From assembly GCA_017551675.1 (NCBI GenBank), contig JAFZLC010000016.1, forward strand, positions 1-64,000: a DNA stretch of 64,000 nt. The letters are read 5' to 3'. Under the pieces are notes generated by a model. That model worked only from the letters and a program-made list of their open reading frames with translations. It was not told the origin of the DNA and made no database searches. Below are positions 170 through 62,860 of this stretch, piece after piece. Every line of letters begins with the position of its first letter. Within the stretch, counting starts at the first letter, position 1. The translations under genes were made by a program, and so were the position numbers. The DNA comes from Paludibacteraceae bacterium. GTDB lineage: Bacteria > Bacteroidota > Bacteroidia > Bacteroidales > Paludibacteraceae.

Positions 170-931
170 TTAATTGTTATTCCTGATTGGTAACAAGTAT
201 GCTTTCCATTTGTCTCCCTTCCCATTTCCGAAGACAATGGATAGTCCAAAATTAGTCATTGGACGCGTTATTATTTCTTTCTTGTCGAAGGCTATGAGAT
301 GAGCACCTATTGTGTAGGACCTCATGACGTTGCCAATCGAACCATAATCGACTATTAGGTGCTCTTCCACTTCCATCTTCTTGCCGTTTTCTGCGATAAC
401 CACTATGCTTACGTCATCCTCTTCCTTGAAGGTGGGCCATTCTGTGGAGGAACTTATTTCCACCATGTCGTTGTTGATTTTCAGAAAGAATTTCACCTTG
501 GGTGATAGGATAAGCTTGATTTGCGATAATGGTGCATTGTCAGAGTCGGTGATGGTCATATATGCTTTTTGGTCGGTGGGTCGCACCGCTATATCTATGC
601 TTTTCAGATAGTTTCGATTTCCGTCCAGCCATCCAAGTTTGTAACTTGTGATATTACGGTCTTTGCATATTAGACGGCGACCTTTATATTGTGTGGAGGA
701 GAATTTTAAGACGTTGTCGCTCACCCGTTTGTATAGGATGCCTGAGGTGAAACTATATAGGTCATTGTTTTTACTTAAGTCCACATGGATTGTGTCATTG
801 TTGGGATGAAAGATGTACAAGGAGGTCTTGAACACATTGGAGGACACACTATCTCTCTTTGTCTCTCCCGTTTGTGCTGTTACATGGAGGCATAGTATGA
901 ATGCCGCGATCAGTGATAAGAATCTATTCAT
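170..931 (-). CDS. Secreted hypothetical protein, 253 aa
   Basis: I do not recognise the family. The first ~19 residues form a signal peptide (Met-Asn-Arg, then a hydrophobic stretch ending in VTAQ), so the product is probably exported across the inner membrane. There is no lipobox cysteine. The mature part is rich in beta-prone and charged residues and contains no Cys cluster or catalytic motif I can name. It is transcribed away from the terminator of the aromatic operon on the same strand, so it is probably a separate unit. The start is chosen because it puts the signal peptide at the N-terminus. Function unknown. Confidence 0.7.
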   Translation of the reverse strand: MNRFLSLIAAFILCLHVTAQTGETKRDSVSSNVFKTSLYIFHPNNDTIHVDLSKNNDLYSFTSGILYKRVSDNVLKFSSTQYKGRRLICKDRNITSYKLGWLDGNRNYLKSIDIAVRPTDQKAYMTITDSDNAPLSQIKLILSPKVKFFLKINNDMVEISSSTEWPTFKEEDDVSIVVIAENGKKMEVEEHLIVDYGSIGNVMRSYTIGAHLIAFDKKEIITRPMTNFGLSIVFGNGKGDKWKAYLLPIRNNN

Positions 932-1008: not shown

Positions 1009-1046
1009 AAAAAAAACAGGATGTGCCACAATCAGACACACCCTGT
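1009..1046 (-). terminator. Intrinsic terminator of the aromatic operon
   Basis: On the minus strand an ACAGG...CCTGT stem, extended by GTGT/ACAC-type pairs past one mismatch, is followed directly by a run of eight T. It lies about 40 bp past the stop codon of the DAHP synthase/chorismate mutase gene and so closes the pheA operon. Confidence 0.75.
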
Positions 1047-1082
1047 ATGTTATATGTTGGAAAAATCCAACCCAATCGTTTT

Positions 1083-2141
1083 TTACTCCATGATCAACAT
1101 TTGTTGACGAACAGACTCTGAGTGGATTGCCTCGAATACGATCTTCATGAATTCACCATCCATAGAGAGTTCGATGCCTTGTTGTGCACGCTTGTTGATG
1201 ATCTCATCATAACGTGTGGTTTGTAGAATAGGCATCTGATGCTCCTTCTTGTAGGTTCCGATTTCACGAGAGATACGCATTCTCTTCGCCAATGTCTCAA
1301 TCAAGTTGATGTCGATTTCATCAATCTGCTTTCTGAGCTCGGTTAAGTTCTCTGTTGTTTGGTTTGTCTCACGGATAACAAGGTTGTTGAGGATGATGTT
1401 CAATACCTCAGGTGTTACTTGCTGTGAAGCGTCGCTCCATGCATTATCTGGATCAATGTGTGATTCAATGATCAAACCATCGAATTGCAAGTCCATTGAC
1501 TGTTGACATAGTGGTGCGATGAGGTCGCGACGACCAGAGATATGACTTGGGTCGCAGATGATCGGTAAATCAGGAATACGTCTGCGAAGTTCAATAGGAA
1601 TATGCCATTGAGGAAGGTTGCGGTAGAGTTTCTTATCGTATGTGCTGAATCCTCTGTGGATAGCACCAAGACGACGGATGCCGGCATTGTTGAGACGTTG
1701 CAATGCACCAATCCAAAGTTCCAAATCAGGATTGACTGGGTTTTTGATCAATACGGGAACGTCTGTTCCTTGTAGTGTATCAGCAATCTCTTGTACTGCA
1801 AATGGATCTGCGGTTGTACGTGCTCCAATCCATAATAGATCGATACCATATTTTAAAGCCTCTTCTACGTGTTTTGCTGTGGCAACCTCTGTGGCAGTGA
1901 GCATGCCAGTCTCCTTCTTGACTGTTTGCATCCAAGGCAAGGCTTTGATTCCATTACCTTCGAATCCTCCTGGTTTGGTACGTGGTTTCCATATTCCGGC
2001 ACGGAACACTTTCACTCCGTTGCTTGCTAATTGTTTAGCGGTTGCGATTACTTGTTCTTCTGTCTCTGCACTGCATGGACCTGCAATGACCAATGGTCTT
2101 TTTTCTTCTACACCTGTAAGACCTAGTTTTTTTAATTCCAT
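1083..2141 (-). CDS. Bifunctional DAHP synthase / chorismate mutase
   Basis: The enzyme should condense phosphoenolpyruvate with erythrose 4-phosphate (first step of the shikimate pathway) and also convert chorismate to prephenate. The N-terminal ~250 residues carry the DAHP synthase (KDPG-type aldolase) signatures: GPCSAE near residue 21, WKPRTKPGGFEG near 51, and CDPSHISGRR. The C-terminal ~90 residues are an all-helical AroQ chorismate mutase, beginning LTELRKQIDEID and ending with the ESVRQQ helix. This fusion is usual in Bacteroidota. It follows pheA by 37 bp on the same strand and must share its attenuated leader. The mutase product, prephenate, is the substrate of PheA, so the two genes form a short route from central metabolism to phenylpyruvate. 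No tyrA or aminotransferase gene lies beside them. Confidence 0.93.
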   Translation of the reverse strand: MELKKLGLTGVEEKRPLVIAGPCSAETEEQVIATAKQLASNGVKVFRAGIWKPRTKPGGFEGNGIKALPWMQTVKKETGMLTATEVATAKHVEEALKYGIDLLWIGARTTADPFAVQEIADTLQGTDVPVLIKNPVNPDLELWIGALQRLNNAGIRRLGAIHRGFSTYDKKLYRNLPQWHIPIELRRRIPDLPIICDPSHISGRRDLIAPLCQQSMDLQFDGLIIESHIDPDNAWSDASQQVTPEVLNIILNNLVIRETNQTTENLTELRKQIDEIDINLIETLAKRMRISREIGTYKKEHQMPILQTTRYDEIINKRAQQGIELSMDGEFMKIVFEAIHSESVRQQMLIME

Positions 2142-2178: not shown

Positions 2179-3021
2179 TTATAAGTTTTGATTTGCCTCT
2201 TGGTATTCTCCTAATACTTTCAAGTCCTTTGTCAGAGGCGTGATAGCCGACAACGCTTGTGTGTAACGAACATATTGTGAGAAGGAGAGGTTTACGTAGA
2301 ATTGATATTCCCACTCTCTGCCGATGATAGGGAGAGATTGAATCTTAGTGAGGTTGAGTCCGTAGTAGGATAAGATGGACAATATCATAGCCAAACTACC
2401 TTGCTCATGAGGGAGCGAGAAGACGAGAGAGGCTTTGTTCGGACTCTTTCCTTTGCTTAGCTCGTCGGTCAACCATGAATCCGCTACGATTAGGAAGCGA
2501 GTGAAGTTGTGTTTGTTGGTTTCAATTCCTTTCTCCAATATTTCAAGTCCGTAAATCTCGGCAGCCATCTCGCCACAAATGGCAGCTACTCCCATTTTGC
2601 CCTCTTCAGCCACTCTTTTGGCGCTGGATGCGGTGTCGTCGCTTTCTACGGCTTTGATGTGCTTGTTGCGTTGAAGGAAGTCGCCACATTGCATAAGAGC
2701 GATAGGGTGGGAGTGAACCTCATGAATGTCGGATATCTTCTGTCCGGGGAGAGCTACTAAGTTGTGTTTGATGCGAAGTTTGTATTCTCCTGCGATCTTC
2801 AAACCGCTCTCTTTTAGAAGATTATGGTTTTGTAGCAAACTGCCTGCTATTGTATTCTCTATTGCTACGGCTCCTATGATGGATGAGTCTTTCTTGATGG
2901 TGGCGAATACATCGTTAAATGTCTCGCATGGGATAATCTCTATCTCTTCACCATTGAAATATTCATGAGCGGCGATGTCGTGGAAACATCCTTTAATTCC
3001 TTGTATTGCAACTTTCTTCAT
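2179..3021 (-). CDS. pheA: Prephenate dehydratase with ACT domain
   Basis: Converts prephenate to phenylpyruvate, the committed step to phenylalanine. The 280-residue protein has the catalytic dehydratase domain (about 1-180), including the AIENTIAG strand near 53-60 and the conserved TRF motif at 174-176 with the essential Thr. An ACT regulatory domain follows (about 196-270) with the sequence EQGSLAMILSIL, the place where phenylalanine normally binds as feedback inhibitor. The length is normal for a monofunctional enzyme. It is the first structural gene of the operon. Upstream are two leader peptide/terminator modules on the same strand, so expression is probably set by charged tRNA-Phe and tRNA-Tyr as well as by allostery. 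Confidence 0.93.
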   Translation of the reverse strand: MKKVAIQGIKGCFHDIAAHEYFNGEEIEIIPCETFNDVFATIKKDSSIIGAVAIENTIAGSLLQNHNLLKESGLKIAGEYKLRIKHNLVALPGQKISDIHEVHSHPIALMQCGDFLQRNKHIKAVESDDTASSAKRVAEEGKMGVAAICGEMAAEIYGLEILEKGIETNKHNFTRFLIVADSWLTDELSKGKSPNKASLVFSLPHEQGSLAMILSILSYYGLNLTKIQSLPIIGREWEYQFYVNLSFSQYVRYTQALSAITPLTKDLKVLGEYQEANQNL

Positions 3022-3041: not shown

Positions 3042-3065
3042 AAAAAAACCCGCTTTTCGGCGGGT
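3042..3065 (-). terminator. Attenuator 2: intrinsic terminator in the pheA leader
   Basis: On the minus strand ACCCGC-CGAAAA-GCGGGT is followed by seven T. It sits between leader peptide 2 and the pheA start, so it can only work as a regulated, premature terminator. Its 5' arm (CCCGCC, plus positions 3059-3064) is exactly complementary to GGCGGG (plus 3090-3095), which begins directly after the stop codon of leader peptide 2. That gives a competing antiterminator, the classical attenuation layout. Confidence 0.85.
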
Positions 3066-3095
3066 CTTGGTTTATCATACAATCTCCTTCCCGCC

Positions 3096-3158
3096 TTATG
3101 AAATAAAGTGGTAAAAGAAGTAAAAAAAGTAACCGTTATGTATCGAAATAATTATCAT
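3096..3158 (-). CDS. Aromatic leader peptide 2 (20 aa)
   Basis: A 20-codon reading frame translating to MIIISIHNGYFFYFFYHFIS and then TAA. It has five Phe and three Tyr codons in the last eleven positions. It lies between the two terminators of the pheA leader. The stop codon abuts the GGCGGG arm of antiterminator 2, so a ribosome that finishes the peptide would mask that arm and let terminator 2 form. A ribosome stalled on uncharged Phe or Tyr codons would leave it free. Composition and position are the evidence; expression is inferred. Confidence 0.8.
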   Translation of the reverse strand: MIIISIHNGYFFYFFYHFIS

Positions 3159-3171
3159 ACTTATTAAAATC

Positions 3172-3197
3172 AAAAAAGTCTCACATTTCTGCGAGAC
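3172..3197 (-). terminator. Attenuator 1: intrinsic terminator in the pheA leader
   Basis: On the minus strand GTCTCGC-AGAAAT-GTGAGAC (seven pairs, one G-U) is followed by six T. It lies ~50 nt past the stop of leader peptide 1. The 5' side (minus GAGTCTCGC, plus 3191-3199) can pair over nine positions with GCGAGATTC (plus 3235-3243), which starts 2 nt after the leader 1 stop codon. This is a mutually exclusive antiterminator. Confidence 0.85.
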
Positions 3198-3245
3198 TCA
3201 TATCTTAAAAAATTTGTTTCAAATTTGGTAATCAGAATCTCGCTC

Positions 3246-3302
3246 TTACTGTTTAAAGTAAAAGTAAAAAAAGAAGTAATATGAATAAACTAAATTTTTC
3301 AT
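3246..3302 (-). CDS. Aromatic leader peptide 1 (18 aa)
   Basis: An 18-codon frame, MKNLVYSYYFFFYFYFKQ then TAA, with five Phe and five Tyr codons between residues 6 and 16. Its ATG is about 12-20 nt downstream of the expected transcription start of the promoter at 3321-3353, so it is the first thing translated on the pheA transcript. The stop codon is 2 nt before the antiterminator arm. An aromatic run this dense, placed exactly here, is very unlikely by chance. Confidence 0.87.
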   Translation of the reverse strand: MKNLVYSYYFFFYFYFKQ

Positions 3303-3320
3303 TGTTTCTGAATTACTGTG

Positions 3321-3353
3321 CAAAGGTATATATAGTTTTTTAGAAAATGCAAA
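3321..3353 (-). promoter_or_regulatory. Promoter of the pheA leader and operon
   Basis: On the minus strand TTTG (plus 3350-3353) is separated by 21 bp from TACCTTTG (plus 3321-3328), matching the Bacteroidota -33/-7 consensus. It precedes leader peptide 1. Confidence 0.8.
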
Positions 3354-3503: not shown

Positions 3504-4283
3504 ATGAAACATTCATTTCACACAACTGCATTATTATTTAATGATACATTGAAAATCTTCTTTCTGATAATTCTTTTTGGCTTTACGTCGTTGGCAAACG
3601 CTAATACTATAGATTATATGTATTATATGGCGGGTAATCCTACAAAAGGAATGAAAACTCTTACTATAGAGAGAGATAATACTACAGAAATTTATTATTT
3701 AAATACTGAGGCTAAGTTTGATTCTGTTCGATTTCGTGGTAGATGGAGAGAAGATTTTATGGCCTTTCAGTACAGGAAAGACACATTAACAATTAACATG
3801 TACGCTAACGGCAAATTAGAAGGGAAAATGCTATGGACAAAAGATTCTGTATGGTCATATGGCTATGAAAAGGATTCTGTCAAATTAATTATGTCTGCGC
3901 AACTTGATGACCATGGGGAAATAAAAAGTCGGTATCGAGATGGAATCGGGACTGACACTTATAAAAGAATATATGACTCGAAAGGTAATTGTACAAGAAA
4001 TGAATACTATGAAAAAGGCGTGAAAAAACAAGTCACTGTTACAAAATACGATGATCGTGGCATTATTATGGAAAAACGCGAGTTCGATGCTCAGGGAAAA
4101 CAGAAATATTGCAATAAATATAACTCCAATGGATTGCTGGTTGAATATGATGAGGATGGGAAAGTGTACTTTAGAACGTATAAATACGATGAAAAGGGCA
4201 ACTGGATTGAGTTTACTGTTGTAGAGAAAAGCAATCCGCAGGCTATTGTTTCTACTGTCAAACGCGTAATTGAATATTATTAA
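3504..4283 (+). CDS. Secreted YD/MORN-like hypothetical protein, 259 aa
   Basis: The N-terminus has a hydrophobic segment (about 16-33) ending in ANA, consistent with a signal peptide. From about residue 155 onwards the sequence has short repeats of the type YDxxGNxxxxxYY, YDDRGIIMEKREF, FDAQGKQKY, YNSNGLLVEYDEDGK and YDEKGNWIEF. These resemble the YD/RHS-like or MORN-like repeats common in small secreted Bacteroidota proteins. No enzyme motif is visible. It is divergent from the pheA operon and followed by two palindromic repeats. Function unknown; a role at the cell surface is only a guess. Confidence 0.7.
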   Translation: MKHSFHTTALLFNDTLKIFFLIILFGFTSLANANTIDYMYYMAGNPTKGMKTLTIERDNTTEIYYLNTEAKFDSVRFRGRWREDFMAFQYRKDTLTINMYANGKLEGKMLWTKDSVWSYGYEKDSVKLIMSAQLDDHGEIKSRYRDGIGTDTYKRIYDSKGNCTRNEYYEKGVKKQVTVTKYDDRGIIMEKREFDAQGKQKYCNKYNSNGLLVEYDEDGKVYFRTYKYDEKGNWIEFTVVEKSNPQAIVSTVKRVIEYY

Positions 4284-28162: not shown

Positions 28163-28492
28163 ATGCAAGATAACGAAGAAAAAAATGTGAAAAAAAACCA
28201 AATCAGTGTAGAGTTGACTGAAGAGGTGGCTGAGGGCATCTATTCCAATATGGCCATTATCTCTCATTCTCCATCTGAATTTGTGTTGGATTTCCTTCGC
28301 ATCATGCCAAACTCTAATAAGGCAAAGGTGAAGTCTAGAATCATCCTTACTCCAGAACATGCAAAACGCTTGTTACATGCGTTGGAGGAAAATATGGATA
28401 AGTTTGAAAACCAATTTGGTACAGTGAAACGTTCTGACATGAACTTTAATCCTCCGTTCCCTATCAATTTGTCTGGATCGGGAGAAGCTTAA
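28163..28492 (+). CDS. DUF3467 family protein, 109 aa
   Basis: A small conserved cytoplasmic protein of unknown function. The core VELTEEVAEGIYSNMAIISHSPSEFVLDFLRIMP and SRIILTPEHAKRLLHALEENMDKFE is the DUF3467 signature. The ATG at 28163 is chosen because a start 24 bp earlier lies inside the hairpin. It commonly follows rpoC in Bacteroidota, which suggests a role tied to transcription or translation, but no function is established here. Confidence 0.82.
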   Translation: MQDNEEKNVKKNQISVELTEEVAEGIYSNMAIISHSPSEFVLDFLRIMPNSNKAKVKSRIILTPEHAKRLLHALEENMDKFENQFGTVKRSDMNFNPPFPINLSGSGEA

Positions 28493-62771: not shown

Positions 62772-62860
62772 AGCCCTGTAAGGGCGCCATATCATAGACA
62801 GGGGTGTGAACCCCTGGTAGAATGACGAGGGTGACCGAAGCCCTGTAGGGGCGAAACAAT
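62772..62860 (+). repeat. Second repeat family (AGCCCTGTA-GGGCG)
   Basis: AGCCCTGTAAGGGCG (62772) and AGCCCTGTAGGGGCG (62839) flank a hairpin CAGGGGT-GTGA-ACCCCTG (62799-62816). A fragment GTGAACCCCTGGT also occurs at 61983, before composite copy 1. I think similar sequences occur between genes in other Bacteroidota, but cannot check. The rest of the 320-bp gap before the flippase fragment has nothing else I can name. Confidence 0.75.

Follow-up and report, generated by a model that had tools for sequence, protein, structure and literature searches.

Attenuators of the E. coli pheL-pheA type are single, ribosome-mediated devices in which a leader frame rich in codons for the product is followed by a choice between antiterminator and terminator, the biosynthetic operon lying downstream. 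In Bacteroidota, a structured element has been described at the 5′-end of pheA in Flavobacterium psychrophilum, and leader-peptide attenuation has been suspected for amino acid operons (PMC9723704); transcriptomic work on B. thetaiotaomicron has noted short frames reminiscent of leader peptides (PMC7366714). The uORFC-13-1 motif, located before aroF in Acholeplasma, includes a leader frame with at least one Phe residue beside a terminator (PMC8632094). Serial arrangements are also on record. The mgtCBR leader of Salmonella bears tandem attenuators that respond additively to ATP and proline, and which were presented as a singular example for different signals in PMC3641672, where attenuation of the E. 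coli trp operon is also summarised. Pseudo-cooperative tandem riboswitches, such as the tandem TPP riboswitches, are said to steepen the response (PMC9481103). In the open-licence literature, mgtCBR was the only case of tandem leader-peptide attenuators recognised, and no report was recognised of an amino acid leader-peptide attenuator in serial form for the same signal; the single Bacteroidetes form, and even a double one, may have been described earlier.

The window analysed here is the whole stretch of 64,000 nt of Paludibacteraceae DNA. It was originally predicted to carry, on the minus strand, a promoter, two leader peptides, two antiterminator arms and two terminators ahead of pheA, and all of these were confirmed to the base (Table 1). 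The promoter resembles the Bacteroidota-type consensus (TAnnTTTG / TTTG) quoted in PMC7366714, and is the sole occurrence of TAnnTTTG from –420 to the start of pheA. The two predicted frames, which would be translated in the mechanism proposed below, contain 10 (leader 1) and 8 (leader 2) Phe or Tyr codons. Arm 1 begins 2 nt beyond the stop codon of leader 1, and its nine-position pairing (one G-U) is formed with GAGTCTCGC at 3191-3199. The leader RNA was more stable than all of 100 dinucleotide-preserving shuffles (z –4.87). When both strands of the 64-kb window were searched with a module scorer that requires a short F/Y-dense frame, an arm and a terminator, three modules were returned, the two of the pheA leader and one at 28267; none was found in 40 simulated windows of equal dinucleotide frequencies. 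The element at 28267, on the minus strand, combines a frame of 57 aa, F/Y-rich in part, with a terminator-like hairpin; it passes the scorer and was judged spurious. Against a chance origin of the pheA leader, the retention of its design in relatives is a stronger argument than these window statistics. The ORFs beside the operon lie at 3504-4283 (plus strand; a sub-threshold RHS-repeat match only) and 170-931 (minus strand; no match). At 62772-62817 (minus strand), the window also contains an above-threshold match (42 bits versus 37) to the Rfam Acido-Lenti-1 RNA, a family named for other phyla.

Table 1. Coordinates of the pheA leader and operon within the window
Feature	Position	Strand	Evidence
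Promoter: TTTG (–33 like) and TACCTTTG (–7 like)	3321..3353	minus	Sequence read
Segment 1, GTAATTCAGAA, 5′ of the start codon of leader 1; one-bulge complement of 3228-3237	3306..3316	minus	MFE fold, class-level covariation
Predicted leader peptide 1, MKNLVYSYYFFFYFYFKQ, 18 aa, 5 F and 5 Y	3246..3302	minus	Sequence read, relatives
Segment 2: antiterminator arm 1, GCGAGATTC (3235-3243), overlapping the segment-1 partner TTCTGATTAC (3228-3237)	3228..3243	minus	Sequence, covariation
Terminator 1 (segments 3 and 4) with U-run	about 3172..3199	minus	–14.1 kcal/mol, covariation
Predicted leader peptide 2, MIIISIHNGYFFYFFYHFIS, 20 aa, 5 F and 3 Y	3096..3158	minus	Sequence read, relatives
Antiterminator arm 2, GGCGGG, adjoining the leader 2 stop codon	3090..3095	minus	Exact match to CCCGCC 3059-3064 (six positions)
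Terminator 2 with U-run; 5′ arm CCCGCC 3059-3064	3042..3065	minus	–12.8 kcal/mol
pheA, prephenate dehydratase	2179..3021	minus	PF00800, E 1.9e-56
Second operon gene, aroF/CM: fusion of DAHP synthase and chorismate mutase type II	1083..2141	minus	PF00793 and PF01817
Probable operon terminator, inverted repeat and T-run	1015..1047	minus	By eye

The genome from which the window comes consists of 58 contigs and was compared with 15 congeners, many of the compared genomes being metagenome assemblies. Its close relatives are metagenome-assembled Paludibacteraceae or Bacteroidales, the sources of which include goat omasum, horse faeces and yak caecum; the organism itself is a gut-type bacterium. An identical leader is present in three assemblies treated as separate species (G000, G003 and G014). 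In all 14 same-genus relatives with enough contig (L112-L125), aroF/CM is found immediately 3′ of pheA. The order in Bacteroides is pheA, aminotransferase, aroF, tyrA, and that in the window's genus and a few kin is pheA then aroF. The original prediction had envisaged an operon for the common pathway which, through mixed Phe/Tyr codons, would sense both end products; the mixed codons are present, but the operon consists of pheA and aroF/chorismate mutase, with no tyrA. The one PF02153 (tyrA) match of the genome lies on a different contig, and a search upstream of it found no Phe/Tyr leader; regulation of tyrA within the window operon was thus dropped as a candidate. The same kind of scan revealed no leader-terminator element upstream of ilvD or trpE. 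Upstream of hisG (G000, contig C7, L261), a single His attenuator was seen, MFNMKHHHNHHHYQR, with an arm after the stop codon (by eye) and a terminator, GGCTTGCCG-AAAAA-CGGTGAGCC, followed by a T-run. With its single his and double phe attenuators, G000 would therefore contain both forms.

To place the leader among its relatives, 209 rows of sequence upstream of pheA were scored, the loci being the best matches to the window's pheA and some genomes being entered twice; 153 contained one module, 19 two and 37 none. Within the family, a pheA match was obtained for 139 of 358 genomes, and the upstream stretch was examined for 123 of the 139. Six of the 37 module-less rows had <170 nt upstream. 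Of the other 31, 28 contain an aromatic-dense frame and 25 come from loci named Bacteroides; the scorer thus probably overlooked their terminators. A frame with at least six F/Y within 12 codons was present in 200 of the 203 rows having at least 170 nt upstream, and no aromatic-dense frame was found in the upstreams (≥170 nt) of L069, L206 and L216. A covariance model of the module, run on 295 Bacteroidales genomes of ≥90% completeness, gave a match at E ≤0.001 (E-values being rough) in 103 of them; the other 192 were counted as lacking a match irrespective of the presence of pheA. Scanning 16 genomes for a pattern of seven F/Y codons proved uninformative, as many matches fell outside pheA and a reversed control was equally frequent in many genomes. 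The single module is the common pheA leader of Bacteroidales. Comparison with relatives had been suggested at the outset as a check on the design, stems retained without aromatic frames being the outcome that would speak against it; the stems, arms and aromatic frames turned out to be retained together, in favour of the original prediction.

Covariation was analysed in 56 diverse modules, chosen by dissimilarity and length from 149 unique ones and aligned with MAFFT. In the antiterminator helix, 86.6% of cells were paired and 6 of 8 pairs showed two-sided changes; its covariation score (0.262 versus 0.156 in shuffles) was reached by none of 500 shuffles, and fell when the partner was slid by 1 to 3 columns. 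The outer two pairs of this helix were frequently unpaired (19/56 and 27/56). The terminator helix was paired in 99.1% of cells and had changed on both sides in 7 of 8 pairs; its score was 0.377 versus 0.231 in shuffles, again reached by 0/500. Both helices use the 5′ half of the terminator and are therefore mutually exclusive. A minimum pairing score was required for a module to be included in these sets, a bias toward pairing that is answered by a permutation test, since in such a test own partners are compared with swapped ones: own arm-terminator partners scored 21.3 and permuted partners 16.8 (149 unique modules). Because kinship inflates permutation tests, the set was also thinned by pheA identity; the values of z were then about 11.7 (65 module clusters) and 8.6 (34 clusters). 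Calculated fold energies favoured the antiterminator over the terminator in module 1 (–17.3 versus –14.1 kcal/mol). In module 2, in which the arm forms six pairs only, the antiterminator was no more stable than the terminator (–11.6 versus –12.8).

A further, third pairing was detected between the leader start region (the 5′ untranslated stretch and first codons) and the stretch just beyond the arm. Complementarity scored 15.6, versus 13.8 for permuted partners, the highest of 1000 permutations being 14.35 and two controls being flat (149 modules); upon thinning by kinship, z was about 5.9 and 5.1, with a control at about –1. The signal stems from part of the set, own partners exceeding the row median in 94 of 149 modules. 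This pairing is weaker than the antiterminator and terminator helices, yet it covaries: differing letters are found at the same place in CATCAAAAT/ATTTTGATG, AAAATAGAAG/CTTCTATTTT and AAAATCGAAG/CTTCGATTTT, and in AGCGATGACGAAC/GTTCGTTATTGTT it spans the start codon itself. In the window, it occurs with one bulge in module 1 (MFE fold) and in a weak version, seen by eye, in module 2. As a candidate for a 1:2 (anti-antiterminator) stem it offers a covarying pairing beside the arm, but its 5′ partner is the leader start region. Since it crosses the antiterminator along the RNA, a pseudoknot of the two is possible. From its place, the third pairing is probably the default fold of the untranslated leader and, once the first ribosome has passed, it may shut off the leader start.

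To calculate where a ribosome would sit relative to the arm, the distance between the first base of the P-site codon and the ribosome's front edge was assumed to be 15 nt (PMC3641672 cites 12-15 nt, counted from the P site). With this assumed 15-nt edge, a ribosome whose A site holds the final aromatic codon of the run would leave the arm free in 140 of the 149 modules, and one whose A site holds the stop codon would cover at least 4 nt of the arm in all 149; for 47 of these the latter is trivial, since their frame extends past the arm. In tandem second modules the same assumed edge would leave the arm free in 4 of 9 only.

Taken as a whole, the locus very probably comprises two ribosome-mediated transcription attenuators of one kind, placed in series on one transcript. 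In each module, the ribosome translating the leader would report the supply of Phe-tRNA and Tyr-tRNA. If both were plentiful it would arrive at the stop codon and cover the arm, letting the terminator form; if it stalled on an aromatic codon, the arm would be free to pair with the terminator's 5′ half, allowing RNA polymerase to continue. RNA extending past module 1 would face the same test at module 2 before pheA-aroF/CM was reached. Since transcripts would have to pass both modules, read-through should be roughly the product of two probabilities, so that leak would be reduced and the response to the one signal steepened. The ‘AND-type response’ foreseen in the original prediction holds insofar as two tests stand in series, but a two-input gate is not what the leaders suggest: both modules carry the same codon types, and one signal would thus be tested twice, with a multiplicative, steeper outcome. 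Very low basal transcription and a response to Phe and Tyr, which were also foreseen, are what we infer from this design.

The Tyr codons of the leaders appear to follow the gene content of the operon. Among the 70 leader rows with tyrA downstream (some loci appearing twice), none has fewer than two Tyr codons in the aromatic run. Tyr-less aromatic runs were seen in four genomes only (G054, G385, G267 and G269), and no tyrA was found downstream in those operons. In G054 and G385, aminotransferase, aroF and tyrA genes were looked for after pheA and none was found; in G267 and G269, pheA is followed by aminotransferase and aroF genes and no tyrA was found, the contig of G269 ending soon after aroF. 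Two Tyr codons are present near the end of the G385 frame, outside the aromatic run. A separate operon of G054 (L271, C6), containing a prephenate dehydrogenase gene (tyrA) and a DAHP synthase/chorismate mutase gene, has its own Tyr-rich module, MNNTFGYYAFYYYFFYNN, and a separate aminotransferase-aroF operon of G385 (L273, C15) has its own module, MIKNISVFAYFYYYFYFSKK. Tyr codons are kept in 35 rows in which aroF alone lies downstream, and are missing from the aromatic runs of G267 and G269, which also carry aroF; such retention with aroF alone goes against a strict rule, yet suits a gene serving both products. In module 2 of L010, L013, L015-L018, L031 and L134, one Trp codon is found before or within the aromatic run (WCFYYYY, FYYWFYF). 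Since these second leaders carry it, a Trp input is conceivable.

That the tandem form might be confined to the window's genome was considered and rejected. One of the 19 double rows (L061) was set aside as spurious, its extra module having a weak frame. The remaining 18 represent 13 distinct genomes. A pheA match was obtained in 15 genomes of the window's genus, of which 11 carry two modules and four only one; the other two tandem genomes are from g6, and are the only g6 genomes that gave a match. The covariance model yielded two serial matches in eight genomes: the window's own, matched by construction, and seven from four other families, none of which had been used in model building and all of which have pheA following. 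The scorer confirmed both modules in G540, G456, G549 and G613; the second module of G440 and G525, and the first of G581, come from the model and sequence reading. The tandem form was thus found in 13 genomes of the window's family and seven of four other families. On the pheA tree its label changes six times, at least five of these changes being forced by supported branches, and tandem loci occupy at least four separate places.

A single recent duplication in the window's genome was also rejected, the mean identity of modules 1 and 2 within a locus (0.61) being lower than that across clades for first (mean 0.77) or second modules (0.65). In most comparisons, the single modules of outgroups are closer to first modules than to second ones. 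The second modules of f1, f58 and f84 have a common CATAAGG-type arm (by eye), which fits an old shared origin with losses; those of f100 and f110 have other arms. The similarity of second modules across clades cannot settle between one and several origins, since 0.65 hardly exceeds the value for modules 1 and 2 between loci (0.63). Two genomes of the window's genus, G007 and G008, contain a module-2 type only (identity of 0.81-0.85 to the second kind); they fall in a polytomy within a well-supported clade with tandem loci in the pheA tree, and are sister in the pheA-AroF tree. Loss of module 1 is the simpler explanation, since what they retain is a module of the second kind.

Might only one module be functional, the other being a decaying or fortuitous copy? 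Relatives with a module-1 type only (G005, G012 and g4), together with G007 and G008, would be in line with this, as would the greater divergence of second modules across clades, which could reflect a weaker constraint, and the poor U-run (by eye) of the first terminator of G581. In the window, however, both modules retain the start codon, aromatic run, stop codon, arm, arm-terminator match and U-run. Moreover, the arms of second modules and the terminators that they match have changed together (GGCGGG/CCCGCC, GGTGAGAT/GTCTCACC, GGTGGGA/TCCCACC), and tandem pairs recur across the pheA tree. We thus consider such a copy unlikely.

It is more improbable still that the modules lie behind different promoters and act in parallel rather than in series. 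The family has 13 tandem loci, of which 11 were tested, the near copies of G000 (G003 and G014) being excluded; in all 11, TAnnTTTG occurs no more than 60 nt ahead of leader 1. It was found between terminator 1 and leader 2 in none of the 11, the inter-module stretch measuring 29-59 nt including part of terminator 1, and in none of the seven tandem loci of other families; a second promoter motif is thus absent between the modules of 18 tandem loci, although promoters of other types would be invisible to TAnnTTTG. The chances seem slimmest for hairpins read by a protein or a ligand (a riboswitch, a T-box or an RNA-binding protein), with incidental frames. Helices that exclude each other are found in every system of this type, but the window leader gave no Rfam family at threshold, T-box and known riboswitches included, and a permissive search gave sub-threshold matches only, the best amino acid leader being Phe_leader (RF01859; 20.8 and 17.5 bits versus a threshold of 55). 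The near-universal dense F/Y frame in the rows scored, and a Tyr content that tracks the operon genes, also argue against incidental frames.

The preferred reading, two serial ribosome-mediated attenuators, can be tentatively extended. Serial same-signal leader attenuators might form a recurrent Bacteroidales class, matching tandem riboswitches of the pseudo-cooperative type but read by ribosomes, and repeatedly gained or lost to tune steepness and leak, and each module might in addition possess a start-region lock, in which the RNA beside the arm pairs onto the leader initiation region. The leader would then be read about once per transcript or, alternatively, a pseudoknot of lock and antiterminator would commit RNA polymerase to read-through. 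We regard this joint reading as possible, with the balance somewhat against it.

Several consequences follow for the study of attenuation. The textbook scheme is extended to a serial, same-signal form, and the natural sets of leaders before homologous operons (module-1 type only, module-2 type only, or both) make the effect of doubling on leak and steepness directly measurable. Bacteroidales, a main gut order, gains a widespread pheA RNA element whose instance in the window is below Rfam thresholds, and whose codon content seems to track operon content.

Like E. coli trp and pheL-pheA, the leader combines a codon-rich short frame, an antiterminator/terminator choice and a biosynthetic operon on its 3′ side. 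Unlike them, it has two such elements in series for one signal, with mixed Phe and Tyr codons, and the upstream partner of its 1:2-like stem is the leader start region rather than the codon run. The pheA element of F. psychrophilum precedes the same gene in the same phylum, the portion of PMC9723704 that concerns it giving no peptide sequence, mechanism or tandem form. The Acholeplasma motif likewise joins a Phe-codon frame, a terminator and an aromatic-pathway gene, but is single and belongs to another phylum (PMC8632094). The mgtCBR leader RNA likewise contains two leader frames, both of them coupled to transcription, but these serve different signals and its stem-loops are unlike intrinsic terminators (PMC3641672), whereas the present modules have the same codon types and intrinsic terminators. 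As in tandem TPP riboswitches, two full, independent switches for one ligand or signal are found in series; the reader there is a ligand-binding RNA (PMC9481103), while here it would be a translating ribosome. Leader-peptide attenuation is known, and single pheA leader elements have been noticed in Bacteroidota; what appears new, against the open-licence literature, is the serial same-signal form, recurrent and presumably read by the ribosome.
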